From a virus, in the IMG/VR virus record IMGVR_UViG_3300032240_002371, positions 1 to 23,661 of that record: DNA of 23,661 nucleotides; one strand, given 5' to 3'. Numbering within the stretch: the stretch's first letter is position 1; each line of letters starts with the position of its first letter. The position numbers and the translations under genes were made by a program. Shown here piece after piece: positions 370-23,383 of the stretch. The notes below the pieces were generated by a model. The model saw only the letters and a program-made list of their open reading frames with translations, was not told where the DNA came from and ran no database searches.

Positions 370-764
370 TGGCATTAATCCTTGGAACTAAGACAGTAGA
401 CACTGTATCATTTAATGGTACATGTCGATATGATCCAAAAGTTGTCAAAGGATATAACATATCTCCCAATGTTTACTTTGAGGGTAAAAAAGTTGAGTAT
501 TTACCCTCAACGGTCCCACCAGATACTGTGGAAGGTAGACCATGGATTCCGAATCCTGTACCACCACCAGAATTAATTCCGTGTCCTATACCAGTTGCGG
601 AAAGAAAAGTGGTGCCTATACAAAATAAGACAGTTCATATTAATGGATTATTGCCATTGGTGCAAGGTGATGAGACAATTTTAACGTCTTTCCCTGGCAC
701 ACCAAGAAAATTTGTGGCTCCATTTCAGCATCCCACAATACATATTGCAAATTCACCCGTTTAG
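369..764 (+). CDS. PAAR-like spike-tip protein (putative)
   Basis: A 131-residue protein starting at an ATG overlapping the previous stop by one base. It contains two stretches typical of PAAR-type tip proteins: SPNVYFEGKKV (residues 32-42) and KTVHINGLLPLVQGDE (87-102), separated by a proline-rich linker (about 46-76). PAAR proteins cap the central spike of contractile tails and fold into a small cone held by a metal bound to His and Cys. Here H90, H121, H125 and C19 or C72 could supply such a site. The position, next to the gp53/gp5 region and before gp25, resembles T4 gp5.4 next to gp5. What is seen is the motif resemblance and gene order; the tip function and metal site are inference. Its last 20 bases carry the -35 element of the promoter for the next gene. 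Confidence 0.55.
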   Translation: MALILGTKTVDTVSFNGTCRYDPKVVKGYNISPNVYFEGKKVEYLPSTVPPDTVEGRPWIPNPVPPPELIPCPIPVAERKVVPIQNKTVHINGLLPLVQGDETILTSFPGTPRKFVAPFQHPTIHIANSPV

Positions 765-773
765 TGCTATAAT
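745..773 (+). promoter_or_regulatory. sigma70-type promoter with extended -10
   Basis: TTGCAA at 745-750 (4 of 6 to TTGACA), a 17-base spacer, then TATAAT at 768-773 (6 of 6) preceded by TGC at 765-767, giving an extended -10. Transcription should start near 780, about 20 bases before the ATG at 800. It is unlike the TATAAATA late boxes elsewhere in the window and would be read by the host housekeeping holoenzyme without the phage late sigma factor. Confidence 0.7.
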
Positions 774-799
774 ATTTGAGTAATACGGAGGACTGATAC

Positions 800-946
800 A
801 TGGCAAAATCGAAAGGAACGTTCAATAAGTCGAATTATGTTCCTGGCAAACCCAAAATTACGAGTCAAGGGCGCTCGAAGAACACGAATCTTGCGGCAAC
901 CAGTCGAAATGGTCGCAAAAAACGTTATCGTGGGCAAGGAAGTTGA
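800..946 (+). CDS. 48-residue highly basic small protein
   Basis: ATG 800 is preceded by a strong GGAGG ribosome site at 787-791 region and the frame ends at TGA 944-946. The product is 48 residues with 8 Lys and 5 Arg and no Asp or Glu. It begins MAKSKGTFNK and ends RNGRKKRYRGQGS. There is no predicted membrane or signal segment. A basic, Gly/Ser/Asn-rich, acid-free chain suggests a disordered protein that binds nucleic acid or another polyanion, but no known family motif is recognised. It is a self-contained transcription unit, with its own sigma70-type promoter upstream and an intrinsic terminator 2 bases after the stop, inside an operon otherwise served by late promoters. It may therefore be expressed early or constitutively. 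The gene is well supported by start, ribosome site, promoter and terminator; its function is unknown. Confidence 0.8.
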   Translation: MAKSKGTFNKSNYVPGKPKITSQGRSKNTNLAATSRNGRKKRYRGQGS

Positions 947-948
947 GT

Positions 949-975
949 AAAAGCGCCATTTTTGGCGCTTTTTTT
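949..975 (+). terminator. strong rho-independent terminator
   Basis: AAAAGCGCCA at 949-958 pairs perfectly with TGGCGCTTTT at 963-972 around a TTTT loop (959-962), and the T run continues to 975. The GC-rich 6-bp core GCGCCA/TGGCGC and the T tail are those of a classical intrinsic terminator. It begins 3 bases after the stop of the 48-codon gene. Confidence 0.9.
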
Positions 976-3474: not shown

Positions 3475-6400
3475 ATGGTAGTCAAGTCAAGGAATATCTC
3501 TAACTTAATTGAAAACCAATTACCAGAGTTTATTTCCTCTGAGTATCCTAAGTTTGTAAAGTTTCTTCAGAAATATTACGAGCAGTTAGAGAACTCTGGG
3601 CAACCGCTGGATATTATACAGAATTTATCTAAGTACCATGATATTGATACTTATGAGAATTCTTTGTTGTCCGAGAAAACTATTTTAACACAAACCGTAG
3701 ATGCTACTGATACTACGATTTATGTTAATAATACTTCTTCTTTCCCAGATACTAACGGATACATTTTAATTAATGACGAAGTTATCTTCTATCAGTCAAA
3801 AACTTCAAACTCGTTTGAAGATTGCTATAGAAATGTCAGTGCAACCACAAAACTTGGTGATCTATATAATCCTTCCACGGTAAGAAATGTTCCATACGAA
3901 GAAGTTGGAAATGGATCTGATCATGGAATCACGGATGTCTATAATATCAGCAATTTATTCTTTTATGCTTTCGTAAAAAATTACGAAGCACAATATCTTG
4001 CATCGTTCCCAGAAGAGAATCTAAAACCAAGTGTTGATAGAAAAACACTAATCAAAAATATTAAGAAATTTTATCAATCAAAAGGAACTGAGCAATCAAT
4101 CAAGTTTATTTTCAACTCTATTGTCGCAAAAGAAGTTGATGATATTCCTTCGGTTTATTATCCAAAAGATTTTACTTTCAAATCATCAACTGGTGATTGG
4201 ATCTCAAACTATTCACTCAAAGTAAGAGTTCTATCTGGTGATGTAACTAAAGTTATTGGTCAAAGAATTGTTCAGGCACCAAGCTTATATGACACATCAG
4301 TAAAAAATGCATTTTCAGTAATCGACAACATCATTGACATTGGAAATGGATTTTATGAAGTCGTTTTATCTCCAAGTAATAACGTTGGTGAGTTTAAAAT
4401 TGCTTCGGAAACAAAATTAACGAAATTACTACTTTCTTCCAAAACTTCTGGTAATATTGATGTATTTTCAACATTTGGATGGCAGACAACTTCTGGGCAA
4501 ATTGTAATTGGAAATGAAGTCATTACTTACAAAGGCAAAAACGTAAATCAATTTGAAATCGATACTAGAGGCTCGAATGCCATTAACTATGCAGTGGGAA
4601 CACCTGTTTATAGCTTCACTACTGTATCTTCAGATTATGCAGATGGAACAGGATCTGTTGCATTTTTAGTTCTTGGTGTTTTGTATAATTTAGATGTAAA
4701 AGAAGGATTGCCTTACTCACAAGAGAATGATGTAATCCAAGAATCCAAACCTGGATTTGATACTAGAGATCCAATTATTTTCAATAAAACAACTGGATTG
4801 TCAAGGTGGTTTATTAATCAAAATCTTACTAATCCATCATCACCTTCTTCTGTAGTAAATACAAGTTTATCAGAAGTTAATGCTGACGTTTCTGCAATTT
4901 TTGAGGATGAACAATATTACTACATTACTTCTTCTAGTTTTCCCTCAACATCAATAGGCAAGTCAAATTGGTCTACCGCATTAAAAGATCAGAAGATTCT
5001 AAAATTAATTAGAAAAACTCCATTAAACACTACAGAAATTTATCCTACTACTGTTAGAGATGTAGGAATGCTAGTTGATGGTTCTCCAATTTATAGCTAT
5101 AAAGATTATAATGATAGTGACGTTATTTTTGGTGGTGTTGAAAATATCATTATAACATCAAAAGGAAAGGGATACAAAAGTGCTCCTTACGTTTTAATTG
5201 AAGAAAAACTAGGTGTTGAAACAGCAACAGCAAAAGCAGTATTAGCGGGAGAAGTTGTAGATAGTATTATTGTTGAAAGTTCTGGTAATGGATATTTTCC
5301 ACCAGAACCAACAATAACCATTACTTCGGGCAGAGGAGCTGTAGTAGAAGCAGTCGTTACTTTGGGAAGAGTGACCAGTTTAAAAGTTATAAATCGTGGG
5401 GAGTATTATTCGACTCCCCCCGAAATTAAAATTACTGATACTACTGGAAAAGGAAGATTTGCTCGCTTTACTGCTCAAATTTCAGAAGATGGTAAATTAG
5501 TTGGTTTTGTAAAAGAAAATGAAGGAAAATTTTATACACAAGAAAACATTAAAATAGAGGTTGTTCCTGTTGGCAATGGTGCAACTGCTTATGCAAATGT
5601 TAAAAGATGGAAAAAAGATCGATTTGCTAAATTAAGAGTAAATTTAGATTCCTCGAACGGATATTTCTTTGAAAATATAAATTCAGCACTAGAAAATGGT
5701 TATGCAGTAATAGCAAATCCAAAAAATCTCAGAAATCGTTTAGGGGATACTGATTCTTCGAAGCATTCTCCTATTTTAGGTTATGCGTATGATGGTAATC
5801 CAATTTATGGTCCTTATGGATATTTAAATTCATTAAGTGGTTCAATTGGAAGATTAAGAAGCAGTTATAGATTAAAAAATTCCAGGAAAAACGGACCTCC
5901 ATTATCCACATATCCTATAGGAACATTTGTAGAAGATTATGAATATGTTCATTTATCTGGCGAACTAGATGAAAATGGTGGTAGATATTGCACTACTCCA
6001 GAATATCCAAATGGCGTCTATGCTTATTTTGTTTCTGTTGATGAAAATGACAATCCAGTATTTCCATATTTACTCGGAAATAATTTTTATTCAATTCCTG
6101 TAGATTCTAATTACAATAAACAAATTTCTCAAAATCAAATTCCTCGTGGTGTAACAAGATATAGAACAGACAATATAGAACAAAATGGCAAAGGAATTTT
6201 ATCATTAATTAATTCTGTATATTCTGGTTCTATTTCTTCTGCTTCCGTATTTGATTCACATGATAATTTTTCTGTGGGGAGTTTAGTAGAAGTTAATTAT
6301 GAGGATACTCAAGGATATGGATTGGTATCTCAAGTTTCTTCTGTTCAAGGAAAAACAGTAAATTACTTAGAAAACAAAGAAACACCAGCAATACAAATTG

Positions 6401-9400
6401 AAACAAATAATATTTCTTATTTGTTTGAAGGAGACACATTAGTACAAAATAATACTGGAGCTACTGGTCAAATTATTGGTAATGTATTTGATGGTAAAAA
6501 AATTGTATTGAGAAACATTACAGGAACTTTTAATTTTGTAGATACATTATTTGCACAAAATTATAAAGTTATTTCATTAATTGTAGATAAATCATCTTCT
6601 TTTACTGCAAATTCTGTAATAAAGTTAACAAATGGTAAAAAAGGAAATATTGAAAACATATCAGGAAATACTATTAGTTCTGCTTCACACCCATTTACAA
6701 ATGGAGAAAAAATTTCTTTTAGTAATTCTTTTTCCAATATAGTATCTGATCAAATTTATTATGTTAAAAATAGAACTATTAACTCATTTCAAATTTCATC
6801 TACTCCAACGGGATCTATTTTAACATTAACTGACAATTCTTCGCCCATTGCTATTGCAGAAAGTGTAAATGCAAGAGGAAAAGTTTTAGAAGCAACTGAA
6901 AATAAAAACACAATAAAAATTCTCGTAACAAATGGCGAATTTATTGTTGATAGCGAATACTTTTTAACAAGTTCAACAAAAACCGACACCGTAGCATCTA
7001 AAATTTCACTTGTTAAAAAACTAAGCGAAGATTTACAAATTTTTGCTTTGAATGATAATATCGCAATTGTTTCTACAAACAGTGATCATAACTTAGCCGA
7101 GGGAGATACGGTTAATGTTTCTGTTGATCCAGATTTAAATCTCACTACAACGACGTATTATGTAAGAAAAAGAATATATCAAAAAGTAAAATTAAACCCA
7201 CCAAATTTTGCAACAAAAATTTCAGACACTGGTATAGGAATATTAACTACATTAAACAGTGGTGCTGATTATGCCAACGGCGGCAGCAATACATTCACAA
7301 ATGTAGAATTGCTATTTTTAGATCAAACTAAATGCAGAGATTCTGAAGGAAGAATAGTAGGATCTTCTAGTTCTTCTGCTATCCTTGGTAATCCTGGAGG
7401 AACAAATAATGCAAAGGCAACAATTAATGTTGTCAATGGTTTAGTAACTAGTGTTATCATAACTTCAAAGGGAACTGGATATAAAAAAGGCGATATATTA
7501 ACAGTATCAAATACTTCTTTGAACAGAGCTTCTGGTTCTGTAAGTAGTCAATATTTTATTACTGAGATCGACCACGTTGGATTGTCATACAATCAAACAA
7601 CTTTGTATTTGAAGACAGTTGAAGGAATTTCTATTAATGATAATATTATCATTAATAACGAAGTAGTAAAAGTAACAGCAATTAATTCAAATGCTTCTTC
7701 CGTAACAATTATAAGAGCACAAGAAAATACAGAAGCAGTTAATCATTACAATGATCAACCAGTAACATTATATAATTCAAAATATAATCTTTCTGTTGGG
7801 TATGAAGTAGGAACCAAAACAAATTCGGGTAAAATAAAATCATATAACTCAGAAACACAAGAATTGATAGTTATATTTGATTCTATTGATTCTTCTATTA
7901 ATTTATCAACAATTAATAGATTAGATTTAAATTATACATTTTTTGATGAAAGCACTGCCCGCAAATTAGTAAGTATTTCTCAAATTTTAGAAGATGCAAA
8001 TTATCAATTTGAATTTTCAAAAGATCAAACATCTTGGAGAAGAAATCCAATTATAGAAGTCCAAAAATACTATACTTATGTTTTTGATCAAACTGATACT
8101 TCTTTGGTTGGTAGTATTTTGGATTTTTCACCAAGTAATAATCATAACTTATACACCGTAGAGGTATTAGATTCACCAGAAATTTCAAAAACAAATCCTG
8201 GTGTTTCTAGTCCATCTGCTATTACCAAATTAAGATTTGGTTATGGATCTGCACAGCAACAATTTTTGTTAGAAAAATCTCCACCCAATTATAGTAATTA
8301 CTATTATTATGATAGAAATGGAATTATTCAAACAGACAATTCATATTTAAAATTAATTGATGACCCATTACAAGGAAATCAAACTGTTAGTTATGTAACT
8401 CCAAACAAATTTGTTTACAAATTAAAAAAACTTGCACAGTATGATGGACATGGAACTATTACATATACTACTTCATCATCAACTGCCGTAGGAAAAATAA
8501 ATCAGATTTCAATATCAAATCCAGGAAAAGAATTTAAGAAAATTCCAATTGTAATTGGAATTAGACCAAGTTCATCTGTAGAAGCACTGGCAGAAGTAAA
8601 TTGGAATTCTTTAACAAAAAATATTGATTCTGTTAAAATTACATCAATAGGAAAAAACTATTCAAAACCAAAGGCAATTATTGTTGATGGTGATGGATTA
8701 TTTGCTGAATTTAAATGCGTAACAAATAATGACGGCGCTGTGACTGATATTTTAGTTATCAATAAAGGCAAAAATTATACTTATAGACCAAAAATTAAAA
8801 TCATAGAATCTGATATAAAAGTATATTTCAATAGTAAAACTATTGGTGTTCCAAAAAATATTACTGTAATTAAAAATGGATATGATTTTAATAATGATAC
8901 CTCAATTATTAAAAAATATAGTTCAGTACAAATTTTAATTTTGAACAATTTTGGAACTACTGGATTTTCTAGCGGAGAAACAATCGTTCAATATGATCAG
9001 AATGTATTAATTGCTAAAGCCCGAGTTACAAAAGGTGGGTGGAGAAATGGTTCAAATATTCTCAGATTAGAATCTGTTGAAGGAATTTTTAGAAAAGATC
9101 TGCCAATTCTAGGTCAATTAAAAAATACAACTGCTGATATCGTAACTTCTTTTGCAACATTATTCAATACAAATATTAAATCATACTATGATAATCTTGG
9201 TTACTATCAATCAGAGAGATCTCGTATTGGTTCAGAATCACAGAGAATTGCCGATTCTTATTTCTACCAAGATTATTCATATACAATTAAATCAAAAACT
9301 CCAGTAGATGTTTGGAGAAAATTAATTAATAATACAGTTCACCCAGCTGGATTTAAAGTATTTGGTGAAGTAACAATTGACACAAAGGGTTCGGCAGAAT

Positions 9401-12400
9401 TTAAACCACAACCAACGAAAACAAATCATGTAAGTTTCGTACAACTTTGGGATCCAAATAAGAACCGTGTTACAGTAGAATCTACCAGAAGAACAATTAC
9501 TCAGTCATCTATTCGTGTAAAAGATGTAAATGAGGTAAGAGCAAAAGGTTCTGCTTATGTTTCCGCTTTTGATACATCCGAAACTATATCATATGAATTT
9601 GGTTTAGATCCTGCATTTGATGGGTATGTTGATGAAAGTGGAAACAGAAAAGGAACCAAAACATTTACGATGAAAATTAAGGGTTCTAATACTCCTTTAA
9701 ACGTTGATAATCAAAATAATGTTATCATTTCTTTGGACGGAATTGTACAAGAACCAGGAAAAGCATTTACTATAAATGGCACTCAAATAACATTTAATGA
9801 AGCTCCATTTGGAAATAGATTCAATCCCAGTAATTTAACTGCAATTAATCCAATTTCTTCTTATCAGATTAAATTGAGTGGTGTATTGAATGCTAGTTTA
9901 TTCTCTGTTGGGCAAAAATTCTATACTGATAGTACATCATATACTAATGTCTTAAATTTTGTAGATTCAAATTCTAATACTAATCCAATTCAATTACAGG
10001 GAGCATATGAAGTAGTAGATATTGGCAACAATACTTTGACTATTTCTCCATTGAATTTGTTGCCACCTGTTTTGGGTAGTGTGTTTTCTGTTGCTGTCAG
10101 AAATGGCACTGCTAGTTTTATAACTACCATTTCTGTTGGTGGTAACTTCTTCCCATGCACTGCCAAATTATTAAATTATACCGAAAGATCTTATGTTCCT
10201 GGGTCAGATATACCAGGACAAAAATTTATTGGTAGATTTATTAAATTTAAAGATGCACTATTGAATTCTGCTGGGTTTAGAAAAATTAAAAATATTTCAA
10301 GTCAATTTGACAATAGCAAAACAATCTTTGATTTGTATTATGATGACAATACTCCAGTAGAATTGAAATCAAATGAAAACTTATTAGTTTCTATTGATGG
10401 TGTTATTCAAAGGTCTGGTTTCACTCCTTTAGTTCCTTTTGACCGTGCTTATTATATCAGAAAAACCGTAGTACCAAACCAAATTGTTTTTGTAGAACCA
10501 CCGAGAAAATTTGAAGAAGTACAAACATCACAAACTTTCAATAAAGTAAAACAATCGTTCTTTGCATACAATATTGGAGCATATGATCGATTAAAAATAG
10601 ATGAAAAATTTGTTGATGATTTAAACTATGGTCCATTTATTTTAAGATCTGCAATAACTGGTAAAACTTCACCAGTTGATGACGATAGAAATGCATTAGT
10701 GTTTATTGATGGAGTTTTACAAAGAAGAAATACTAGTTCCTATGTAATCCGTGGTGCAAGTATTACATTTGGCGAACCAATTAGAGTAGGTCAAAAAGTA
10801 GATATTTTATATCTCTATGGTAGAGATAGTACAAAATATATTACTTTGTTTAATTTTGAAAGGGTTCCTTTCTACAATAGATTAGAATTAAAGTTAAAAT
10901 CTTATCTAGGATTTAAGCAGTTTAATAAAATTCCTTGTTACCAGGGTCCATCTCTAAAAGATAATACAGCATTTGGTTATGTTCAAAAATATGACATATT
11001 GCCAGATGGAAAATGTATTGTAACTTTAGATACACAAAATAATAAATTTGACACAACAAAACCAATTATTTGTATTGACGGTAAAGCAAGTGGTTTGGGT
11101 GATCTGACTATTTTGCCATCTGATATTATTTCAATTGGTCAATCTCAATCTGTAACTGGATCAACTGTTTATTTCGAGCAAACGCAAGATACTTTAGAAG
11201 TATTGAGAAAAGATACTTCTGGTTGGTTGATCAATTCGTCCAAAAAACCAAATTATTATAATTTAATTGACGTTGATGATGAAATTAAGATTGATGGAGA
11301 AACCGACTATAGAAAAGTTCTAGGTATACCAGACGAAGTAATTAAGACACAATATCGTGGAGATGACGATGTAAATACCGATTATTTTGGAAAAGTTTCC
11401 ACTACAAATTATAATGGTATTGCGAGAGGTGAAGGGTTAGATGTTGTGCCAGAAGTAGACACAAATCCATCTTCGCCAACATATGGTCAAATTGTAGCAT
11501 TGATATGGAATAAGAGAAATTATGATGCATACGAAACCAGAAGAATATTGCCAAGACCAGCTGGTTATGGTTATGACGATGCTCCCAGATTGCATTTTGT
11601 CCCACAACCAGTAAAGGATGAAGGTGGTAATATTATTGCAGCACCATCTGGTGGAGGGGCTAGAGGATATGTTGTAGTTGATAATGGAGAAGTTGTTGAT
11701 GTTGTATTGACTACTGGAGGTAGTGAATATAAAGTTCCTCCTAGAATTTATGTTGCTCGTGGATTTAATATTAAAAAATCAAACAAAAATAATGTACATA
11801 GATTAATTACTCAATATCACACTCCATTTGTATTTTCTGCTTCGCTTAAAGTTTTTTCTGGTTCTGCAACATCACAATTACCAGAACCACCAATTATTTA
11901 CATCGAAACTTTTGTTTCGCCTGCTATACGAAATAGAAGTATTGTTCTTACTAATATTTTACAAATTAAATTAAAGCCCGCAATACCTCTGGCACTTACT
12001 TCGGCCAAAGCATCTATTAATTTTACAATAGTACCAAAAATAAACGTAAGATCTTCAGATATATCACATTCGTTCATTTCATATAGCAACGGAAATAAAA
12101 CACCTATACAAATTTTTAATGAAAGCAGTGTTAGAGTCAAACCCACAATTAATCAATATGTTTCTTACATTAGAACTTTCTTAAAAGTTATCAATGGTCC
12201 TGTTTATCCTGCTTTACATGATACTGGAGCATGGTTACAAATTTCTTTGACAAAAACAGATTCTATTGTTTATATTGCCGACACGAGTAAATTTACTTAT
12301 TCTGGTCGTTTAATGATTGATGGTGAAATCTTACGATATACTTCTAAAATATCAGATCGTTTCTTAGGCGTAACAAGGGGACAAGATGGAACATCCGTTG

Positions 12401-13392
12401 CAACACATGATGCTGGTACATTTGTAAGACAGTACCGTGAAAATGTCACTATTGTTTCTGGTGGTGTTGCTGGAGTTACCATAATTGCTCCATCTATATC
12501 TACTGTAAGAGTACAAAAAGCCTCACTCAATCAAGTTGTTTCAATTGAACAAATTACTATAAAACCAAATGTAGTAAAAGTTGGTGATCAAATAACTTCG
12601 ATTATTCAAAAATCGGAAAAAATTAATTCTATTGTTAGAGTTGTTAGTGCTCAAGTTCCAACATTAACAATTTCGAAATCAAATGTTAATGTTGCAATTA
12701 GTAAATTAGTTAAAAATAATGTTATTATTCTTGCACCTACTTTAAATATTGTTTCTAAATCAACCATTACAAAATTAGTAGGTGAAGTAGTAAAAATTTA
12801 TAAAACTGGAATAATAGATTCTTATTCGGAAACAATTTTACTAACAAGTGATATAACTACAAGAACTGGTACAGTTACACTAAATCCAACAATTACTTCC
12901 GTTTCTCTGAGAAGTAGTGGTTCTTTCTCGGTTAATAATACCTCCGCACAAACAGCAATTGATTCATATAGTATTACAAATGCTGGAACAACATTAGGAT
13001 CTTTGGAATCTTGGAAATTTGTAAATGTTGGATCTTCAAATGTCTCTGGTTTTACAATCCAAGAATTTGATTTTGTATATCCAGGATTAAAATTACAAGA
13101 TTTTGTATTGAATAAAATTACACAATATACTCCATCAAATATCAAATATAATGCTGGATATCCTTCTATAAATGAGTTAGGATCTGTTCTTGTAAATAGT
13201 ATGACAACTACTGGCACAACTATTCAAATATCAAGCACAAGTCGTTTTCCATCATCTGGTTATTTAATTATTGAAGGCGAAATAATTTCTTATACAGGAA
13301 AAACATCCACCAATTTTACAGGTGTTATCCGTTCAGTAAATGGCATAATTGCTACTCACGCTAATGGTACTTATCTCAGAAGTTACAACTAA
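3475..13392 (+). CDS. giant modular baseplate protein at the gp7 position, with YHYH-like domain
   Basis: One uninterrupted frame of 3305 residues, about three times T4 gp7 (1032), between gp6 and gp8 where T4 has gene 7. Residues 1-230 hold a conserved phage pattern: NQLPEFISSEYPKFVKFLQK near the N-terminus, then SFPEENLKP and FYQSKGTEQSIKFIF. After that the chain is a mosaic: five copies of a '..TTIYV..TS.FP..GYI.I..EVI.Y..K' module (from residues 74, 323, 1369, 2926 and 3243), GY-x-x-P repeat blocks (about 555-708, 1313-1347, 1675-1781, 2696-2764), a YHYH-like domain (763-880), a GD..SGATG module (983-1033), and three V.IDGV.Q modules (2083, 2303, 2407). An acid-poor Ile/Val/Lys region (about 2780-3115) precedes the last module. 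No enzyme site is evident. It is probably an outer baseplate wedge component. Coding status is certain; equivalence to gp7 is by position only. Confidence 0.9.
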   Translation: MVVKSRNISNLIENQLPEFISSEYPKFVKFLQKYYEQLENSGQPLDIIQNLSKYHDIDTYENSLLSEKTILTQTVDATDTTIYVNNTSSFPDTNGYILINDEVIFYQSKTSNSFEDCYRNVSATTKLGDLYNPSTVRNVPYEEVGNGSDHGITDVYNISNLFFYAFVKNYEAQYLASFPEENLKPSVDRKTLIKNIKKFYQSKGTEQSIKFIFNSIVAKEVDDIPSVYYPKDFTFKSSTGDWISNYSLKVRVLSGDVTKVIGQRIVQAPSLYDTSVKNAFSVIDNIIDIGNGFYEVVLSPSNNVGEFKIASETKLTKLLLSSKTSGNIDVFSTFGWQTTSGQIVIGNEVITYKGKNVNQFEIDTRGSNAINYAVGTPVYSFTTVSSDYADGTGSVAFLVLGVLYNLDVKEGLPYSQENDVIQESKPGFDTRDPIIFNKTTGLSRWFINQNLTNPSSPSSVVNTSLSEVNADVSAIFEDEQYYYITSSSFPSTSIGKSNWSTALKDQKILKLIRKTPLNTTEIYPTTVRDVGMLVDGSPIYSYKDYNDSDVIFGGVENIIITSKGKGYKSAPYVLIEEKLGVETATAKAVLAGEVVDSIIVESSGNGYFPPEPTITITSGRGAVVEAVVTLGRVTSLKVINRGEYYSTPPEIKITDTTGKGRFARFTAQISEDGKLVGFVKENEGKFYTQENIKIEVVPVGNGATAYANVKRWKKDRFAKLRVNLDSSNGYFFENINSALENGYAVIANPKNLRNRLGDTDSSKHSPILGYAYDGNPIYGPYGYLNSLSGSIGRLRSSYRLKNSRKNGPPLSTYPIGTFVEDYEYVHLSGELDENGGRYCTTPEYPNGVYAYFVSVDENDNPVFPYLLGNNFYSIPVDSNYNKQISQNQIPRGVTRYRTDNIEQNGKGILSLINSVYSGSISSASVFDSHDNFSVGSLVEVNYEDTQGYGLVSQVSSVQGKTVNYLENKETPAIQIETNNISYLFEGDTLVQNNTGATGQIIGNVFDGKKIVLRNITGTFNFVDTLFAQNYKVISLIVDKSSSFTANSVIKLTNGKKGNIENISGNTISSASHPFTNGEKISFSNSFSNIVSDQIYYVKNRTINSFQISSTPTGSILTLTDNSSPIAIAESVNARGKVLEATENKNTIKILVTNGEFIVDSEYFLTSSTKTDTVASKISLVKKLSEDLQIFALNDNIAIVSTNSDHNLAEGDTVNVSVDPDLNLTTTTYYVRKRIYQKVKLNPPNFATKISDTGIGILTTLNSGADYANGGSNTFTNVELLFLDQTKCRDSEGRIVGSSSSSAILGNPGGTNNAKATINVVNGLVTSVIITSKGTGYKKGDILTVSNTSLNRASGSVSSQYFITEIDHVGLSYNQTTLYLKTVEGISINDNIIINNEVVKVTAINSNASSVTIIRAQENTEAVNHYNDQPVTLYNSKYNLSVGYEVGTKTNSGKIKSYNSETQELIVIFDSIDSSINLSTINRLDLNYTFFDESTARKLVSISQILEDANYQFEFSKDQTSWRRNPIIEVQKYYTYVFDQTDTSLVGSILDFSPSNNHNLYTVEVLDSPEISKTNPGVSSPSAITKLRFGYGSAQQQFLLEKSPPNYSNYYYYDRNGIIQTDNSYLKLIDDPLQGNQTVSYVTPNKFVYKLKKLAQYDGHGTITYTTSSSTAVGKINQISISNPGKEFKKIPIVIGIRPSSSVEALAEVNWNSLTKNIDSVKITSIGKNYSKPKAIIVDGDGLFAEFKCVTNNDGAVTDILVINKGKNYTYRPKIKIIESDIKVYFNSKTIGVPKNITVIKNGYDFNNDTSIIKKYSSVQILILNNFGTTGFSSGETIVQYDQNVLIAKARVTKGGWRNGSNILRLESVEGIFRKDLPILGQLKNTTADIVTSFATLFNTNIKSYYDNLGYYQSERSRIGSESQRIADSYFYQDYSYTIKSKTPVDVWRKLINNTVHPAGFKVFGEVTIDTKGSAEFKPQPTKTNHVSFVQLWDPNKNRVTVESTRRTITQSSIRVKDVNEVRAKGSAYVSAFDTSETISYEFGLDPAFDGYVDESGNRKGTKTFTMKIKGSNTPLNVDNQNNVIISLDGIVQEPGKAFTINGTQITFNEAPFGNRFNPSNLTAINPISSYQIKLSGVLNASLFSVGQKFYTDSTSYTNVLNFVDSNSNTNPIQLQGAYEVVDIGNNTLTISPLNLLPPVLGSVFSVAVRNGTASFITTISVGGNFFPCTAKLLNYTERSYVPGSDIPGQKFIGRFIKFKDALLNSAGFRKIKNISSQFDNSKTIFDLYYDDNTPVELKSNENLLVSIDGVIQRSGFTPLVPFDRAYYIRKTVVPNQIVFVEPPRKFEEVQTSQTFNKVKQSFFAYNIGAYDRLKIDEKFVDDLNYGPFILRSAITGKTSPVDDDRNALVFIDGVLQRRNTSSYVIRGASITFGEPIRVGQKVDILYLYGRDSTKYITLFNFERVPFYNRLELKLKSYLGFKQFNKIPCYQGPSLKDNTAFGYVQKYDILPDGKCIVTLDTQNNKFDTTKPIICIDGKASGLGDLTILPSDIISIGQSQSVTGSTVYFEQTQDTLEVLRKDTSGWLINSSKKPNYYNLIDVDDEIKIDGETDYRKVLGIPDEVIKTQYRGDDDVNTDYFGKVSTTNYNGIARGEGLDVVPEVDTNPSSPTYGQIVALIWNKRNYDAYETRRILPRPAGYGYDDAPRLHFVPQPVKDEGGNIIAAPSGGGARGYVVVDNGEVVDVVLTTGGSEYKVPPRIYVARGFNIKKSNKNNVHRLITQYHTPFVFSASLKVFSGSATSQLPEPPIIYIETFVSPAIRNRSIVLTNILQIKLKPAIPLALTSAKASINFTIVPKINVRSSDISHSFISYSNGNKTPIQIFNESSVRVKPTINQYVSYIRTFLKVINGPVYPALHDTGAWLQISLTKTDSIVYIADTSKFTYSGRLMIDGEILRYTSKISDRFLGVTRGQDGTSVATHDAGTFVRQYRENVTIVSGGVAGVTIIAPSISTVRVQKASLNQVVSIEQITIKPNVVKVGDQITSIIQKSEKINSIVRVVSAQVPTLTISKSNVNVAISKLVKNNVIILAPTLNIVSKSTITKLVGEVVKIYKTGIIDSYSETILLTSDITTRTGTVTLNPTITSVSLRSSGSFSVNNTSAQTAIDSYSITNAGTTLGSLESWKFVNVGSSNVSGFTIQEFDFVYPGLKLQDFVLNKITQYTPSNIKYNAGYPSINELGSVLVNSMTTTGTTIQISSTSRFPSSGYLIIEGEIISYTGKTSTNFTGVIRSVNGIIATHANGTYLRSYN
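5137..5598 (+). repeat. GY-x-P repeat block A in the giant gene
   Basis: Residues about 555-708 contain about four consecutive degenerate units of roughly 40-45 residues. The pattern is a hydrophobic strand, then G-x-GY (KGKGYKSAP, SGNGYFPPEP, RGEYYSTPP, EGKFYTQEN), then a short strand and a G/A-rich turn. This reads as a tandem beta-repeat segment. Confidence 0.65.
5761..6110 (+). other. YHYH-like domain in the giant gene
   Basis: Residues 763-880 contain PILGYAYDGNPIYGPYGY and, later, RYCTTPEYPNGVYAYF and FPYLLGNNFYSIP. These match the framework of the YHYH domain family, including the conserved GYAYDG.PIYGPYG segment. The position of the namesake Y-H-Y-H is occupied by Y-A-Y-F (residues 849-852, bases 6019-6030). 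Confidence 0.75.
11815..12825 (+). other. acid-poor Ile/Val/Lys/Ser/Thr-rich region of the giant gene
   Basis: Residues about 2781-3117, interrupted by one complete '..GRLMIDGEILRY' module at 2926-2987. The rest is dense in Ile, Val, Thr, Ser and Lys with few Asp or Glu, and shows recurring I-x-P patches (TIIAPSI, TIKPNVV, IILAPTL). It is unlike the Gly/Tyr-rich modules before it and may form a long beta stalk; this is inference. Confidence 0.4.
13201..13389 (+). repeat. C-terminal copy of the 'GYLIIEGEIISYTGK' module
   Basis: The final 63 residues (3243-3305) form a complete module with the same order as the copy at residues 2926-2987 (bases 12250-12435): TTI-strand, STSRFPSSGYLIIEGE, SYTGKT, GVIR, then ATHANGTYLRSYN against ATHDAGTFVRQY. 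More diverged copies start at bases 3694, 4441 and 7579. The protein ends on this domain. Confidence 0.75.
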
Positions 13393-13395
13393 GCG

Positions 13396-13409
13396 TATAA
13401 ATATAAATA
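13396..13409 (+). promoter_or_regulatory. overlapping tandem late promoter boxes upstream of gp8
   Basis: TATAAATA at 13396-13403 and again at 13402-13409, sharing two bases. The 12-base string GTATAAATATAA (13395-13406) also occurs at the gp25 promoter (1247-1258). Starts near 13409-13415 would give a 24-30-base leader containing GGAG at 13425-13428, upstream of ATG 13439. Confidence 0.8.
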
Positions 13410-15259: not shown

Positions 15260-18200
15260 ATGCCTCAGAAGATTAATCTTAATTCAACACCTTATAATGA
15301 TGACTTTAATTCTTCGAAAGAGTATTACAGGGTTCTTTTTAGACCTGGATACTCTATTCAAACAAGAGAATTAAATACTTTACAGTCAGTTTTACAAAAT
15401 CAGATTGAAAATTTTGGTAAGAGTCAATATAAACAGGGGCAACAAGTTGTCCCTGGTGAAGTTTCTTTCAACAATAAATTAAATTATGTAAAATTATCTT
15501 CAGTATCTGAAGTTGCTGTAAATGTTGGTGGTAATATTGTTTTCCAAAAATACAATATTGCCAATTTAGTTGGTAATATTGTTCAGGGATTATCTTCTGG
15601 GGTTACTGCAACTGTTGTTTCTTATGCATATAGTTCAGAAACCGAATCTGATATTATTTTTGTAAAATATACAAATAGCGGCAATTCAAACGAAGAGTCA
15701 ACTTTCAGACAAGGAGAAACTTTAGAAGTTTTAAATATCGCTGACAGTCCATTACTTGTCGTTGGAACTGATGGCAGTGTTCTTCCAGCAACTATTGATG
15801 TTGTTGATTATGATACACAAAAAACAAAAACTATTGACAGTCCCGCAATGGGATATGCCTCTGCTGTTCAAGTAGAAAGTGGTGTTTATTTTGTCAATGG
15901 ATTTTTTGTAAATAATGCCAAGCAAATTGTTGTAGTAGATAAGTATTATAATAAACCATCGGTAAAAGTTGGTTTTGAAATTAGCGAGCAATTAGTAACA
16001 CCAGAAGAAGATAATTCTTTATATGATAATGCTCGTGGATTTAGTAATTTTTCTGCACCTGGAGCACATCGTTTAAAAATTGATCTTACATTAAATGTAT
16101 ATGAGTACGATGCAACTACTTCACCAGATTTTATACATTTAATTACTTTAAAGAACGGCGAAATACAAAAATTAGTTAGAAGTCAAGATTACAATATCAT
16201 AGAGGAAACTCTAGCCAGAAGAACGTATGATGAATCTGGCGACTATGTTGTAAATAATTTCTCAGTAGATTTAAGAGAATATTATCTAAGAAATAATAAT
16301 AAAGGAACATATCCTTTAAATGAATTTGGAACTGTCAATGGCAAAACACCAGATGAAGCCAGAGGATTAATGGTAGCTGGTATAAGTCCTGGTAAAGCAT
16401 ATGTAAAAGGATATGAAATTTTAAAGAAAGATATTGAATATCAAATTATAGAAAAAGCAAGAGATACTTTAGTAAAACAAGATAACAAAATCAAAGTAAG
16501 TCCACTTTCTTCTTATAATATAAGTAATGTTTATAATTCAGTTCCTTTAAATGCTGAAGGCGAAGATTTGAATGCATACCCAGATGTTTATTTAAATTCT
16601 GTATTTAATGATGGCAAAATAGGATTTAAAAATGTAGATGGTGTATATAATAGAAGAGGAAAAAGATTTACTATAGATGATGGCATAAAAACAATTTATG
16701 TTAAATTGGGTGGTGATTCTCCAACATATCCAACAGATTCCGTTTTAGGCACATCTTTGTGGTTTATTGTTGAAAAAGGAACATCTACTGCTAATATTGT
16801 AACTACTTCCGTAGAAATTCTTTCGTATTCTATTGTTAATAGACCAGATATTGGTGCCCCAACCAATTTATATGTAGAGTACACCGTTCTAGGAAATAAA
16901 TTATATTTAAGTTTACTAAAAGAATATGATAATGATAATTCTTCTAAGAAAAGATTTTTATTCTCTTCCCAAGCACTAGCACAGAATTATTATTATGGCA
17001 CAAATCAACCAGCTCCATACGCAGAAGTAGTTGATTACAACGATACTATCACACCAATTGTTGGTATTTGCAAACCAAAGAATTTTACACTTTTAGAAAA
17101 AGGCACAGGATTTAATACTGATACCGATATTATCCTTTCTAAAGGAAGAGTATCTGGCGGTACATCTGCATACAATTCTGTTTTTAATCTTAGTTATTTC
17201 AACCCAATTTTCTTTACTCAAATTATTGTTGATAAAGATTTGGATTCAAATTCCTTTAAAGTAGGAAAATATGTCAAAGGATTGAAAAGTGGTGCTTATG
17301 GAATTATTGAAGGAACTAATGCTGGATATTATTCTATAACCAACAAATTATTTGTAAAAACTTTATCAGGTGAATTTGTTTCGGGTGAAACTATTGTAGA
17401 TGAAGAAGGAAATTCTAGGAGAATCGCTAGAGAAGGAACAATATCGCATTTCATTGTTCTTCAAAGAGGTACTGGGTATAACATTCAAACTGGTAATACT
17501 ATCAGTCAAATTTTAATTAATGGCATTTCATATGATAGCACTGTTTTAGAACTTAATATCTTAGGATCTTCTATTTACAATATTAATGTAAAAAATAGAG
17601 ACCTCCTATCAAATGTTTATAATAGTGTTCCTTCAGTTACGGTAACTGTTGGTTCTGGGGCAGTAATTTTCCCAGTTCTTTATAAGAACACGGTTACAAC
17701 ATATGGACCCCAAAATGTAAAATCTGTACAATCACAATTTGGAGCAAATTCCAAATATGTATTTACAGCTGATGTTGAATCATTCAATGGTGAGTATTTC
17801 TCCACAAAAACAATTACTGATTTTACATTTTCTGGTGCTGCTGGTTCCAAATTTATAGAGTGCAATGGTTTTTCGGGTGATCCATCCGTAGATCTCGTAC
17901 AAGGGGATATTGTACAGTTTGTATATTCAGATAATGAGGTTGTGAGGACTGTTGTTCAATATGCAACAAAACCCGAAGGATTATCAAAAGCAAGAGTATA
18001 CTTAGACATCACACTCAAAAAAGCAGTAGTTAATAGTACAGTTGTTCGTCTACGTGCTAAGGCAGAAAATTCTACGTCTTCGACATTAATTATTCCTACT
18101 GGAACCAAATATGTAAGATCAATTGTTTCCAGCCCAGAAAATTCCAAAATTAAATACTATCTCAGAAGAGATTTTGTAACTAAGATTGCAAGTAGTGGTG

Positions 18201-21200
18201 GTAATATTACTTTTGCTGCTCAGTTGCCATATGGAACTCAAAGGTTTGTGGAATTTTCTGAAAATAACTTCTTAATCACAATCCTAGATCCAGATATAGC
18301 AAGTAACCCAGGTGCAACGGTAAAAAAGGGTGATATCATTTACTTAAAATCAGATCAAATCAGTATCACAAATTCTTCAGATACCACAACTGGTTTAACT
18401 GCTGGTAGTGTTACGGTTAACTTGCCAGCAAACTTCTTTGGCACATTAACCAGCACAGAGAATTTTAAAATAAAATTAACCGCCACGGTAGAAGTTAATA
18501 AAGCAAAACCAAGATTAAAAACATCATACAAGAATAAGAGAATTGTTGTTTCATCTCCTGGAGACAGAGTAATTCCTTTTAGAGGAGTTGATTATGATAC
18601 CAACTCTTCTGAAATTTTATCTTATTCTGATGTATTCAAATTTAGATACGTTTATGAAGGATCTTCTAGTGTTGCTCCTGTTGCAGATGCTGATGGTAAT
18701 TTAGTTTCTGGTATCGATGTAACAGAGAAGTTTACTTTTGATGATGGTCAAAGAGATACTTTCTATGATGTTGCTAGAATCGTTCTCAAGCCTGGTTATG
18801 ATGCTCCTAAAGGTCAATTATTGATTGGATTTGATTACTTTGATCACTCACAAGGAGATTTTTGTACCGTTGATTCATATTTACACGAAGCTGGTGTTAC
18901 AGAAGAAGAAATTCCATATTTCAATTCAACTGTATACGGAAGAACGGCATTAAAGGATGTAATTGACTTTAGACCTAAAGTAGACACAACAACAATTGCT
19001 GGTGGATACCAAGATACCACATTCTTAACGTCTCCCCCAAGTTTTACCAAACAGGGTGGCATTACTGCTGGATCTTTGGCATCAGATTTTAATTTAGAGT
19101 ATAGTTTGTCATTTGATCTTTCTCAATATTTGGATAGAATTGATGGTCTATTTTTAAACAAGAATGGAGAATTCATTGTTAAGAAAGGAAATCCATCTCT
19201 CAACCCATCAAAACCAACAGATGTTGATGATGCTATTCCTCTTTACTATTTCTATCTCCCAGCGTTTACAACTAGCGCAGATGATGTAAATATCATCCCA
19301 GTTGACAATAAACGCTATACAATGAAAGATATTGGGAAATTAGAAAAGAGAATCGAAAGATTAGAAAAATATACGCTATTGAGTATGCTTGAGCAACAAG
19401 CACTCAATATGCAAGTTAAAAATGAAATAGGAATTGATAGATTTAAGAGTGGTTTTATCGTTGACAATTTTGAAAATCATGGTGTGGGAAATTTAACTTC
19501 TGCCGATTATAAATGTGCTATCGATACTCAACAATCTATTTTAAGACCAAGAGCATTTGAAAGTTCATTAAATTTAAGAGAAATCAACACAACCAACGAA
19601 GAAAGAATTTTAGATGGTTATTCTATCTCAAATGGCGTCGTAACTTTACGTTATGACAACATTAAGTATATTAATAATAGTTTTGCAACAACTACTGTAA
19701 ACATTAATCCATTTGTTGTTGTTCAGTATGTTGGAGATGCTAAGTTAGATCCACCCGTAGATCAATGGTTCAATGCTAAACAAATACCTGTTATTTTAAA
19801 CAATGATAGTAAAGTGTTCTCGGTATTCTATGCTAAGAAAAATGCAAGAGAAGGTTTAGCAAGTATTTTCAATAACTACTCAATCAACTGGGTTGGCACT
19901 AATAGAGTATTTTACAACACAAAACCACTAAATGATGTCAATCTATCTGAATCATCAACTACTATTTCAGCAACAATTTCTTCTTCTTCTAACATTAGTC
20001 CTCAAAATAATGAATCTGCTCAAGGTGTATCAACAACCACTGTCGGTTCAAGTACCATCATTTCTAATATTCAATTCTTCTGTCGTCCAAAACTAGTTAA
20101 CTTTGTTCTAACAAGAATGAAGCCAAAAACAAAATTATATGTTTATTTGGATGGAAAAAATATTGATGCTTGGGTAGCACCAGATTTCAGATTCACTGGC
20201 ATAGCAGGAAACTCATTAAGTTCATTTGGTTCCTCAGTTACAACAGATGAAAATGGAAATGCTAGTGGTGTTTTAGTAATTCCAGCAGGTTATGCACCTA
20301 TCTCTGGTTCATCTGTTCCAAATCAAATTGAATCAATTGGTTATGATGAAACTTCAACTCCATTGTACTTTGTTGCTGGAAATAAAAATATTAAATTTAC
20401 ATCAGATGCAGATGGAATGACAGATGAGAATGTTGATACATTCACAACTGTTACATACTATGCAACTGGTGTTCTTCCTCAAAATCCATCTTCAATCGTA
20501 TCTACATTACCAGCAAAAAATAAAGGCGATGAAGGAATTCAATTGATTGATGGCGCAAAAATTAAACCAAATCCATTGTCACAAACATTTAAGATTCAAA
20601 ATGCTCCAGGTGGAGTATTCTTAACTGGCATGGAACTTTTCTTCTCCAAAAAAAGTTCTGCAATTCCAGTAAAAGTTTATCTATCAAATGTAGAAAGTGG
20701 CAAACCAGGCAAGTATATTATCCCTGGATCAGAGAAGAGTTTAGTGCCAGATACTTACTTAAGAGTATACACCAACGGCACACTAACAATTAAGAAAGAT
20801 GAGTATGCCACAGGTGATACTTCAAAAGCATCAGGTCCATTAAAAACTGTACTCGACAAAAATAATATCGAACTTATTCCTTCTGTAACAGGAGAATATA
20901 CTTTATCAAACGATCAAATTTATACTTTAGTTCTTTCTAATCATAATGGAAAAGAATACAAACAAAATGAGGATGTTGTATTCAATTCACTCACTTCATA
21001 CAATTCTAAAAATGCAACTAAGTTAAGAGTTACGATTGCCAAAGATTCTGGTAGATTGACAGGATTAGAAGTTTTAACGGTTGGCATTGGATATGAAACT
21101 GCATCTATTACTGTAGAAAGTCCACAGTTAGTTGGTGGAATTAATGCGGCAGCAAGTGTTTATGTCTCAAATGGAAATGTTTACGATTCCGAAGTTTCTA

Positions 21201-23383
21201 TATCTGGATCTGGTTACACCGACCCCCCTGCCATTATTATCAATGGAACTGGTAGTTCTCCTTCTGGTGCAACAATTAAATCTTACATTACTATTGATAC
21301 ACCAGCAGTGAGAATGGGAGTTGCTGTAGACACCGAAACACAAAAATCTACAGTTCCAACATTTTTCAAGTTTGATTACCCAATTTATTTACAGAATGAA
21401 ACTGAGTACGCTTTTGGTATAGAATCCGATTCTACTGATTATGAGATTTGGTCTTCTAAACTTGGGCAAAATGAAATTACAACAAATGCAGCTGTAACTA
21501 CACAACCTCTACTTGGTTCGGTATTCAAGTCACAAAATTCTGATACTTGGACCGAAGATTTATTTGAAGATTTAAAATTCAGTTTATACAGAGCAGAATT
21601 TAATACATCATTAACTTCACATGTATATCTAACAAATCAAACGTTAGGTTACGAAGAAATTGAAATGAGTCCTTTTGAAACAGATTCTTCGGAAGATGCG
21701 ACAGCAACTTCCACACTATACAGAAGCAATAACAAAATTGTTAGAGTAAGACATTATAATAATGGTTTTGAAGATTCTGGTAAATCATATGTTGCTTTCA
21801 AACAAGCATCTTCTGTTGGCGGTGTTGGTTCTGAATTACTAAATTCTAAGTTATTCAGTGTTACCAATAGTGGATTAGAATCTTATAATATTGATGCAGA
21901 GTTTAGAGCCACTTCTTCTGAAGTAGGTGGTGGTGACAATGTATTAGCATCACATAATAAGAAATTCGAAAAACTTTATGCTCAGGTAGGTATTTTATCT
22001 CTACCAAGCACTACAATTAATTCATATGTAAAAACTACCAATATTGTCCCAGTTGATAATACGGATACTACTTACACATCATATTCACAATCTTCTGATT
22101 ACGAAAATACATTTTTAAACCAAGAACATCTATTTAATAATCAAAAAGTAGTTGCATCAAGGATCAATGAATTGAAGAATGGATTGAATAGATCTTTACA
22201 GTATAAATTGGATTTAGCATCTTCAAATTCATATCTATCACCTATTATTGATTTGAGAACCAGTACGGTTAAATTAGTTCACAATCAAGTTGAAAAATCA
22301 TCTGGTTTGGAATCTCGTTATGGTAGAATCGATCAAGTAATTAAATTCTATCCAGTTTATAAAATTATATACAACGGTTCTGGATTAGCAAATGTTTCTG
22401 ATAATGATATTGTTGGAAGTCCTTCAAATATCAAAACAATAACAGGAAATACATCCCAAGCAAATGCGGTTGTTGTTAGAGTTGATAAAGCAAATGCTAT
22501 ATTATGGGTTAAAATGTTAACTGATACAACTTTTGTTTCCAATGAAAAATTATTATTTAATAATATAAGCACTTTAAATTCTGCATCAAATTCAAATATT
22601 TACACGGCTAATAACGGTATCACTGAGGTTGAATTTGATTTTACTGCTGGATCTACACTTATTGCTTTCGATAGAACAGATCTGACAAAAACATATGACA
22701 ATGTAATCAGCGGTAAAGTGGTTCTTTGGGATCCTCGCAAGAAAGAACTTAGAGTATCAAATAACAAAAAACCAATCAACGGAAATTATGTTGCATTAGC
22801 AGTCAATAGTCCATATGCAAGAATTCCATTTGCTATTTCTGGTGCTGGTGGAGGTGTACAAGAAACCGATATCTTTAGAGTTGGTGATATTCTTTCATAT
22901 CCAAATATTACTTCGTCAAATCTTGCATTTACTGAAATTAAATCTATATCTTATACAAATGGAAGTTTGTTTGTTGACGAAACATTCTCTAAAAATAGTT
23001 CTTCTGTTGCAAAATATGTAACAAAAGAAATTGCATTAGAAAATTCATCAACATGTATTAATGTTCGTCTCACTGCAAATATCTTTAAAGAAGATGATAT
23101 CAAAGTTCTTTACAGATATAAGTCAGCAAGTTCACAAAGTAATTTTGAAGATTTAGATTGGATTTATTTCAATGGAGATGGGAGCCCTGATATTAAAGTT
23201 ATTCCTTCAAGTGACAACATTATATCTGGTTACTTAGAATCACAAAATTCTTATAAAGAATACAAGTTTAGTGTTTCATCTTTACCAGAATTTTCATCTT
23301 TTGCAGTTAAAATTGTAATGAGAAGTTCGCAACCTGTATTTGTTCCAAAAGTACAGGATATACGCATTGTTGCTGCTTATTAA
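15260..23383 (+). CDS. giant DUF4815-family virion structural protein
   Basis: A 2707-residue protein. The N-terminus (YRVLFRPGYSIQTRELNTLQ, then NQIENFGKSQYKQGQQV) is the DUF4815 signature, a family in tail proteins of T4-like and related phages. The region to about residue 560 stays similar (GAHRLKIDLTLNVYEYD). Then come SGA-G and GTGY modules (about 660-760), a DYFDHSQGDF segment (1192), a short coiled coil MKDIGKLEKRIERLEKYTLL (1355-1374), a RPK-V-F beta domain (1609), and a split NPLSQTFKI...QPLLGSVFKSQNSDTW domain (about 1770-2095). The C-terminus ends VFVPKVQDIRIVAAY. The order after gp8 suggests an outer baseplate or fibre-attachment role in place of T4 gp9/gp10, but this is inferred. 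The start is set by ATG with GGAA six bases upstream. The stop overlaps the next ATG. Confidence 0.88.
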   Translation: MPQKINLNSTPYNDDFNSSKEYYRVLFRPGYSIQTRELNTLQSVLQNQIENFGKSQYKQGQQVVPGEVSFNNKLNYVKLSSVSEVAVNVGGNIVFQKYNIANLVGNIVQGLSSGVTATVVSYAYSSETESDIIFVKYTNSGNSNEESTFRQGETLEVLNIADSPLLVVGTDGSVLPATIDVVDYDTQKTKTIDSPAMGYASAVQVESGVYFVNGFFVNNAKQIVVVDKYYNKPSVKVGFEISEQLVTPEEDNSLYDNARGFSNFSAPGAHRLKIDLTLNVYEYDATTSPDFIHLITLKNGEIQKLVRSQDYNIIEETLARRTYDESGDYVVNNFSVDLREYYLRNNNKGTYPLNEFGTVNGKTPDEARGLMVAGISPGKAYVKGYEILKKDIEYQIIEKARDTLVKQDNKIKVSPLSSYNISNVYNSVPLNAEGEDLNAYPDVYLNSVFNDGKIGFKNVDGVYNRRGKRFTIDDGIKTIYVKLGGDSPTYPTDSVLGTSLWFIVEKGTSTANIVTTSVEILSYSIVNRPDIGAPTNLYVEYTVLGNKLYLSLLKEYDNDNSSKKRFLFSSQALAQNYYYGTNQPAPYAEVVDYNDTITPIVGICKPKNFTLLEKGTGFNTDTDIILSKGRVSGGTSAYNSVFNLSYFNPIFFTQIIVDKDLDSNSFKVGKYVKGLKSGAYGIIEGTNAGYYSITNKLFVKTLSGEFVSGETIVDEEGNSRRIAREGTISHFIVLQRGTGYNIQTGNTISQILINGISYDSTVLELNILGSSIYNINVKNRDLLSNVYNSVPSVTVTVGSGAVIFPVLYKNTVTTYGPQNVKSVQSQFGANSKYVFTADVESFNGEYFSTKTITDFTFSGAAGSKFIECNGFSGDPSVDLVQGDIVQFVYSDNEVVRTVVQYATKPEGLSKARVYLDITLKKAVVNSTVVRLRAKAENSTSSTLIIPTGTKYVRSIVSSPENSKIKYYLRRDFVTKIASSGGNITFAAQLPYGTQRFVEFSENNFLITILDPDIASNPGATVKKGDIIYLKSDQISITNSSDTTTGLTAGSVTVNLPANFFGTLTSTENFKIKLTATVEVNKAKPRLKTSYKNKRIVVSSPGDRVIPFRGVDYDTNSSEILSYSDVFKFRYVYEGSSSVAPVADADGNLVSGIDVTEKFTFDDGQRDTFYDVARIVLKPGYDAPKGQLLIGFDYFDHSQGDFCTVDSYLHEAGVTEEEIPYFNSTVYGRTALKDVIDFRPKVDTTTIAGGYQDTTFLTSPPSFTKQGGITAGSLASDFNLEYSLSFDLSQYLDRIDGLFLNKNGEFIVKKGNPSLNPSKPTDVDDAIPLYYFYLPAFTTSADDVNIIPVDNKRYTMKDIGKLEKRIERLEKYTLLSMLEQQALNMQVKNEIGIDRFKSGFIVDNFENHGVGNLTSADYKCAIDTQQSILRPRAFESSLNLREINTTNEERILDGYSISNGVVTLRYDNIKYINNSFATTTVNINPFVVVQYVGDAKLDPPVDQWFNAKQIPVILNNDSKVFSVFYAKKNAREGLASIFNNYSINWVGTNRVFYNTKPLNDVNLSESSTTISATISSSSNISPQNNESAQGVSTTTVGSSTIISNIQFFCRPKLVNFVLTRMKPKTKLYVYLDGKNIDAWVAPDFRFTGIAGNSLSSFGSSVTTDENGNASGVLVIPAGYAPISGSSVPNQIESIGYDETSTPLYFVAGNKNIKFTSDADGMTDENVDTFTTVTYYATGVLPQNPSSIVSTLPAKNKGDEGIQLIDGAKIKPNPLSQTFKIQNAPGGVFLTGMELFFSKKSSAIPVKVYLSNVESGKPGKYIIPGSEKSLVPDTYLRVYTNGTLTIKKDEYATGDTSKASGPLKTVLDKNNIELIPSVTGEYTLSNDQIYTLVLSNHNGKEYKQNEDVVFNSLTSYNSKNATKLRVTIAKDSGRLTGLEVLTVGIGYETASITVESPQLVGGINAAASVYVSNGNVYDSEVSISGSGYTDPPAIIINGTGSSPSGATIKSYITIDTPAVRMGVAVDTETQKSTVPTFFKFDYPIYLQNETEYAFGIESDSTDYEIWSSKLGQNEITTNAAVTTQPLLGSVFKSQNSDTWTEDLFEDLKFSLYRAEFNTSLTSHVYLTNQTLGYEEIEMSPFETDSSEDATATSTLYRSNNKIVRVRHYNNGFEDSGKSYVAFKQASSVGGVGSELLNSKLFSVTNSGLESYNIDAEFRATSSEVGGGDNVLASHNKKFEKLYAQVGILSLPSTTINSYVKTTNIVPVDNTDTTYTSYSQSSDYENTFLNQEHLFNNQKVVASRINELKNGLNRSLQYKLDLASSNSYLSPIIDLRTSTVKLVHNQVEKSSGLESRYGRIDQVIKFYPVYKIIYNGSGLANVSDNDIVGSPSNIKTITGNTSQANAVVVRVDKANAILWVKMLTDTTFVSNEKLLFNNISTLNSASNSNIYTANNGITEVEFDFTAGSTLIAFDRTDLTKTYDNVISGKVVLWDPRKKELRVSNNKKPINGNYVALAVNSPYARIPFAISGAGGGVQETDIFRVGDILSYPNITSSNLAFTEIKSISYTNGSLFVDETFSKNSSSVAKYVTKEIALENSSTCINVRLTANIFKEDDIKVLYRYKSASSQSNFEDLDWIYFNGDGSPDIKVIPSSDNIISGYLESQNSYKEYKFSVSSLPEFSSFAVKIVMRSSQPVFVPKVQDIRIVAAY
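21010..21297 (+). repeat. GY-x-P repeats inserted inside a tail domain of the DUF4815 protein
   Basis: Residues about 1918-2013 hold two GY-type units (VGIGYETASI and GSGYTDPPAI) with intervening A/G-rich strands. They lie between IYTLVLSNHNGKEY and PVTFFKFDYPIYL-type segments (here PTFFKFDYPIYL), which normally belong to one conserved domain. Confidence 0.55.

Follow-up and report, generated by a model that had tools for sequence, protein, structure and literature searches.

The preQ1-I riboswitch combines a tiny stem-loop, an A-rich linker and an H-type pseudoknot that act on an SD or terminator platform. In phage T4 the inhibitory leaders of e, soc, 49 and I-TevI hold the ribosome-binding site or the start codon in a helix, while the leader pseudoknot of T2/T4 gene 32, which binds gp32, controls translation (PMC3014915). 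The wcaG, manA, glnA and PhotoRC-II RNAs are cis-regulatory elements borne by cyanophages and are mostly tied to metabolic or photosynthesis genes (PMC2864571, PMC9964418). Early genes of cyanophages are thought to be transcribed by the unmodified host polymerase with sigma70, and the early promoters of S-PM2 and Syn9 carry a sigma70 recognition sequence (PMC2984593).

The DNA analysed here (the window) comprises positions 1–23,661 of IMGVR_UViG_3300032240_002371, a fragment of a T4-like cyanophage. Its region upstream of gp25 is best read as an insulated, probably early gene unit behind which lies a leader of the baseplate operon that resembles a switch, a reading given a probability of about 0.68 as a whole. 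It is built on the conservation of a promoter, a terminator and an RNA structure, the covariation found in hairpins P1 and P2, the predicted pairing of the SD and the presence of two kinds of expression platform.

Gene order and signals upstream of gp25

A promoter, a GGAGG site, a 48-codon gene and an intrinsic terminator had been claimed at 745–975 in the first-pass annotation, and all four parts (745–773, 787–791, 800–946 and 949–975) are present in the window sequence as claimed. The same annotation overlooked the conserved RNA element behind the terminator and an extra gene at 1039–1230, between the terminator and the late promoters of gp25. The features of the locus are the following.

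745–773, + strand: sigma70-type extended −10 promoter, best site of the window, supported by its recurrence in relatives and by control regions
787–791, + strand: ribosome-binding site GGAGG, spaced 8 nt from the ATG at 800, seen in the sequence
800–946, + strand: 48-codon gene coding a basic protein, PHROG 516 / T4-GC 394
949–975, + strand: intrinsic terminator, 10-bp stem (949–972) and U tract, recurring in relatives
984–1001, + strand: P1 hairpin of the RNA element, GCGGG (984–988), loop AUAGCAAC (989–996) and CCCGU (997–1001), supported by covariation
1002–1011, + strand: A-rich linker and tail (AAAAGUUCU, 1003–1011) of the RNA element, conserved
1009–1039, + strand: P2 hairpin of the RNA element, UCUGUUUU (1009–1016) with AAAACAGA (1032–1039)
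1039–1230, + strand: 63-codon gene, PHROG 1414-like, following the RNA element
1248–1267, + strand: tandem T4-type late boxes of gp25, TATAAATA at 1248 and 1260
1277–1672, + strand: gp25, baseplate wedge subunit, the syntenic anchor

Late boxes (NATAAATA) are found in the window at 336, at 1248/1260 (the tandem pair before gp25) and at 13396/13402, and two others lie within genes. No promoter proper to the 1039–1230 gene was recognised between 975 and 1039, despite the strong terminator ahead of it. With no late box in front of the element, this gene would be transcribed either by read-through past the terminator or from an unrecognised promoter. The tail region downstream of gp6 contains two giant open frames, 3475–13392 (3305 aa) and 15260–23383 (2707 aa).

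The PHROG 516 unit

The open reading frame 800–946 codes for 48 amino acids followed by TGA. Residues 1–47 of its product align with positions 1–47 of the 48-position PHROG 516 profile (67.4 bits, E 1.8e-18), a full-length match that makes it a member of this family. The gene occurs in 420 cyanophage isolate records, where it is annotated as the T4-GC 394 hypothetical protein, and in hundreds of viral contig stretches; all isolate matches are to cyanophages or marine phages. Its place is fixed, 67–1745 nt upstream of gp25 in 118/118 loci tested. A search of solved structures gave no match for its product or for that of the 1039–1230 gene.

The promoter ahead of this gene is composed of TTGCAA (745–750), a 17-nt spacer, TG (765–766) and TATAAT (768–773). 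It is the top-scoring sigma70-type site on both strands of the window and scores 10/12, with the TG, in another scan; RNA would be expected to start near 780. A single match of this kind proves little in an A+T-rich phage, 12 kb of which hold 59 sigma70-type sites versus 62 in shuffled sequence, and the promoter becomes significant through its conservation among relatives. A score of at least 12 is reached in 30.8% of 120 dereplicated regions upstream of the PHROG 516 gene, in 0.1% of shuffles, and in 0% of the control regions, which lie before gp25, before gp6 and ahead of the gene that follows the RNA element. The layout is that of sigma70 early promoters, with hexamers 16–18 nt apart and a recurrent distance to the start codon, the −10 box mostly lying 21–36 nt before the ATG in relatives. 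Isolate S-PM2 has an identical TGCTATAAT box ahead of its own copy of the gene. T4-type late boxes have another distribution, preceding gp25 in 85% of loci and the PHROG 516 gene in 5%.

The terminator stem (949–972) has 10 bp, a folding energy of −15 kcal/mol and a z of −5.1, and the U tract comes next to it, as expected for an intrinsic terminator made of a G+C-rich hairpin followed by a U tract. Terminators are found within 110 nt after the PHROG 516 gene in 43/120 loci, against 2/1200 shuffles. They share their position and have unrelated stem sequences, so that the feature rather than the sequence has been kept, which points to selection. The association of promoter and terminator across loci is not significant (p=0.22). 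The promoter is linked to the closeness of the RNA element (p=8e-4, for related loci that are not fully independent), and promoter, terminator and a nearby RNA element come together in 16 loci, the window included. At six loci (L090, L111, L125, L140, L149 and L188) a TAAATA late-promoter-like box lies in or adjoins the terminator loop (e.g., GAGTGCTTAAATAGAAATAAGCACTC), as if the early terminator were also the late promoter.

The earlier proposal of an independent, possibly early unit gains support from the recurrence of an early-class promoter at this position, never found before gp25 or gp6, and from that of the terminator. Relatives compared for the cassette, as the first-pass annotation had advised, agree on the gene, upstream of gp25 in each of the 118 loci; the rest of the cassette is kept in part, with a strong promoter in 31% and a terminator in 43/120. 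A further claim, that the terminator explains the fresh late promoter of gp25, does not hold, late boxes being about as frequent with a terminator (36/42) as without one (63/76; p=0.80).

That the promoter and terminator likenesses arise by chance or are relics, the gene being merely a member of the late operon, is improbable. The strong promoter is missing in about two thirds of relatives, many relatives lack both signals, and the abundance of promoter-like sites in this A+T-rich genome would fit such an explanation; the enrichment at this position over shuffles and over the gp25 and gp6 controls, together with the unrelated terminator stems at one place, speaks against it. The suggestion that the gene is a moron or an inserted regulatory gene, in other words one that is mobile or was acquired recently and has a promoter and a terminator of its own, matches the self-contained layout seen in the sequence and a neighbourhood that acquires accessory genes (PurM, oxygenase, glycosyltransferase), yet it is hardly credible for a gene that is widespread and syntenic instead of sporadically present at a collinear site in close relatives, and that stays upstream of gp25 while its neighbours vary.

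Several isolates code for PurM, an oxygenase, a glycosyltransferase or CP12 around the gene. At five loci (L261, L263, L265, L268 and L270) a hotspot for accessory genes, here PurM, 2OG-Fe(II) oxygenase, glycosyltransferase and CP12, extends from the PHROG 516 gene to gp25 and includes the upstream side.

Host RNA polymerase with the main sigma factor would initiate near 780, transcribe the PHROG 516 gene and stop at 949–975, so that the gene would be made apart from the surrounding late baseplate operon, most likely early. Both the early timing and the termination are deduced from these signals. In this abundant phage group a late structural region thereby encloses a conserved unit with a promoter of host type, which suggests that infection probably requires the basic PHROG 516 protein at another time than the baseplate.

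The RNA element and its possible trigger

Behind the terminator, 12 nt past its stem, starts an apparently undescribed RNA element (984–1039) that is conserved almost letter for letter. It is ordered as the P1 stem with the loop AUAGNAAC, the second P1 strand, an A-rich linker, GUUCU and a hairpin that reaches up to the start codon. The alignment has 20 invariant columns, and P1 shows 40 double-change cells, a value as high being reached in 0/500 shuffles, so that changes in the stem are compensatory. Two of the four P1 pairs never vary, nor do the three pairs of a candidate pseudoknot between loop AAC (994–996) and tail GUU (1007–1009). Longer linkers accompany longer P1 stems.

The element loci were gathered partly with a pattern of our own, and the set found through proteins agrees with them. 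In the latter, 52 of the 77 loci that are long enough carry the exact element, 1 has a version with a single change and 24 lack it, an all-or-none distribution. The element has the covarying conserved core expected of a riboswitch, as P1 covaries and the core is nearly unchanged in the protein-found set. Eight isolates have one strong copy each, at this locus only, and five isolates have none; carriers include the cultured Syn9 and S-WAM2, and DSL-LC03 is a ninth isolate. The PHROG 516 gene is kept without the RNA element in S-RIM8, S-ShM2 and S-SSM5, and in S-PM2 the following gene is retained behind an ordinary ribosome site. The PHROG 516 gene lies upstream on the same strand in 94/120 viral stretches found with the pattern, the others being mostly cut short upstream. 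In S-BM3 the annotated PurM gene contains most of the element and ends just past it.

Several candidates were discarded. One pattern match without the stem (L117) is probably due to chance, as is a second GATAGNAACC of the window (9208, minus strand), which is without tail and stem. The 54 pattern matches in 257 Gb of cellular genomes compare with about 60 expected by chance according to our own estimate, and do not place the element in bacteria. A coding signature, RDSNPVKSS, which can be read in one frame in some of the upstream genes, was rejected, given that the variable base alters a residue and the stem changes are compensatory. Rfam gave no fitting match, either for this stretch of the window, searched up to E=10, or for six relatives at the gathering score, and covariance models of known RNA families, preQ1-I, wcaG, manA and glnA among them, do not recognise the element. 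The literature searched names only other cyanophage RNAs.

The 3' part of the element is predicted to engage the ribosome-binding site. In the subtype adjacent to the SD, P2 (UUCUGAUU/AAUCAGGA) is 100% paired and has two covarying pairs. When the 3' parts are folded, GUUCU is paired in 163/163 elements; the SD is predicted to pair with this part in 145/150, and the median z of the folds is −2.1. An element's own 5' and 3' halves suit each other better than no fewer than half of the exchanged combinations in 136/147. In a second kind of platform, found in 11 elements including that of isolate S-WAM2, the P1 3' strand and the tail form pairs with the region of the SD, and U6 comes next; this terminator platform uses the P1 3' strand and tail, and P1 is then excluded. 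RNAalifold applied to the mixed alignment finds P1 only, the P2 subtypes probably aligning poorly. A competing SD or terminator platform is thus predicted in silico in many relatives and is weaker in the window copy, whose P2 holds the SD GAGG (1027–1030) in its loop with a z of only −1.4 and has a 3' strand extending to the A of the start codon.

By its position the segment 984–1039 would be the leader of the next small gene and of the gp25–gp6 operon. The sensing part would be formed by P1, whose loop AUAGNAAC is invariant, together with the tail AAAAGUUCU. In the OFF state the tail, joined in some phages by the P1 3' strand, would pair with the ribosome-binding site or make a terminator, and the ON state would be reached when a ligand or a protein stabilises P1 and the tail. 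A single core that serves two platform types is how riboswitches are laid out; the switching and its trigger are proposed. A sensed metabolite or phage protein would link the state of the infected cell to the tail assembly genes. The element, which has no Rfam entry and is the same nearly letter for letter across many phages, lends itself to reporter assays and probing.

The nature of the trigger can be read in several ways. An operator bound by a phage or host protein, such as a repressor that binds RNA or the protein encoded by the next gene, rather than a metabolite riboswitch, is a serious candidate with somewhat less than an even chance. The element is confined to one phage group, one locus and one copy per genome; T4 provides precedents in the gene 32 pseudoknot and the RegA sites (PMC3014915), and cyanophages encode RegA (PMC2984593). 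Against an operator stand the two different platforms behind one core, which are typical of riboswitches. The protein coded behind the element is in addition modular and far more variable than the element, which argues against simple self-regulation. This protein (1039–1230) and its homologues are composed of amino- and carboxyl-terminal blocks, with ends CGGKGGFDDYVERWH or IRNDDDYDDWEYGTEP, that are mixed across phages.

More tentatively, the element may be a new riboswitch class of T4-like cyanophages that senses a small molecule of the infected cell. Its core of ~28 nt would then consist of P1, the loop AUAGNAAC, the A-rich linker and the GUU closing the pseudoknot, and it would gate the operon leading into the baseplate genes in most phages by way of translation and in some through a terminator platform.

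A passive 5'-terminal structure that protects the late mRNA or tunes translation, with no sensing, appears unlikely. A TAAATA late box ends 4–7 nt before P1 in 67/164 elements, so that P1 would start where the late transcript is expected to begin. However, 91/164 elements, the window copy being of this type, have no late box in front and probably lie within longer transcripts, and the invariance of loop and tail exceeds what a stem needs. A DNA site such as a recombination joint for the exchange of accessory genes would suit the border of an interval of accessory-gene turnover, but is very improbable in view of the compensatory changes in P1 and P2, the strand-specific pairing with the ribosome site and the constant orientation, always ahead of the same kind of gene.

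Relation to described systems

The T4-GC 394 genes of isolates occupy the same place before gp25 as the gene described here; the difference is its packaging between promoter and terminator, which seems to be undescribed as far as the searched literature goes. The promoter (TTGCAA-17-TG-TATAAT) resembles the sigma70 recognition sequence of the S-PM2 and Syn9 early promoters but stands alone in the late structural region, outside an early gene cluster.

The RNA element resembles preQ1-I in that it too is a tiny stem-loop with an A-rich linker, a possible pseudoknot and an SD or terminator platform; it differs in the letters of its loop and tail and in a gene context unrelated to queuosine. None of the four cyanophage RNAs matches the locus, and their usual context is not a baseplate operon. 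Concealment of the ribosome-binding site or start codon is shared with the T4 leaders. The late transcript of T4 e and soc starts inside the helix and so escapes it, whereas a late RNA of the element would carry the whole of it, the late box, where present, ending before P1; the element is thus not a leader of the e/soc type. To our knowledge, no conserved sensing core is common to the leaders of e, soc, 49 and I-TevI. The gene 32 leader is comparable as a phage leader pseudoknot, one being possible in the element, but differs from the element in sequence and gene. The T4 helices that hide the SD and the gene 32 pseudoknot make the principle a known one (PMC3014915), and it is the family of the element that appears to be new.
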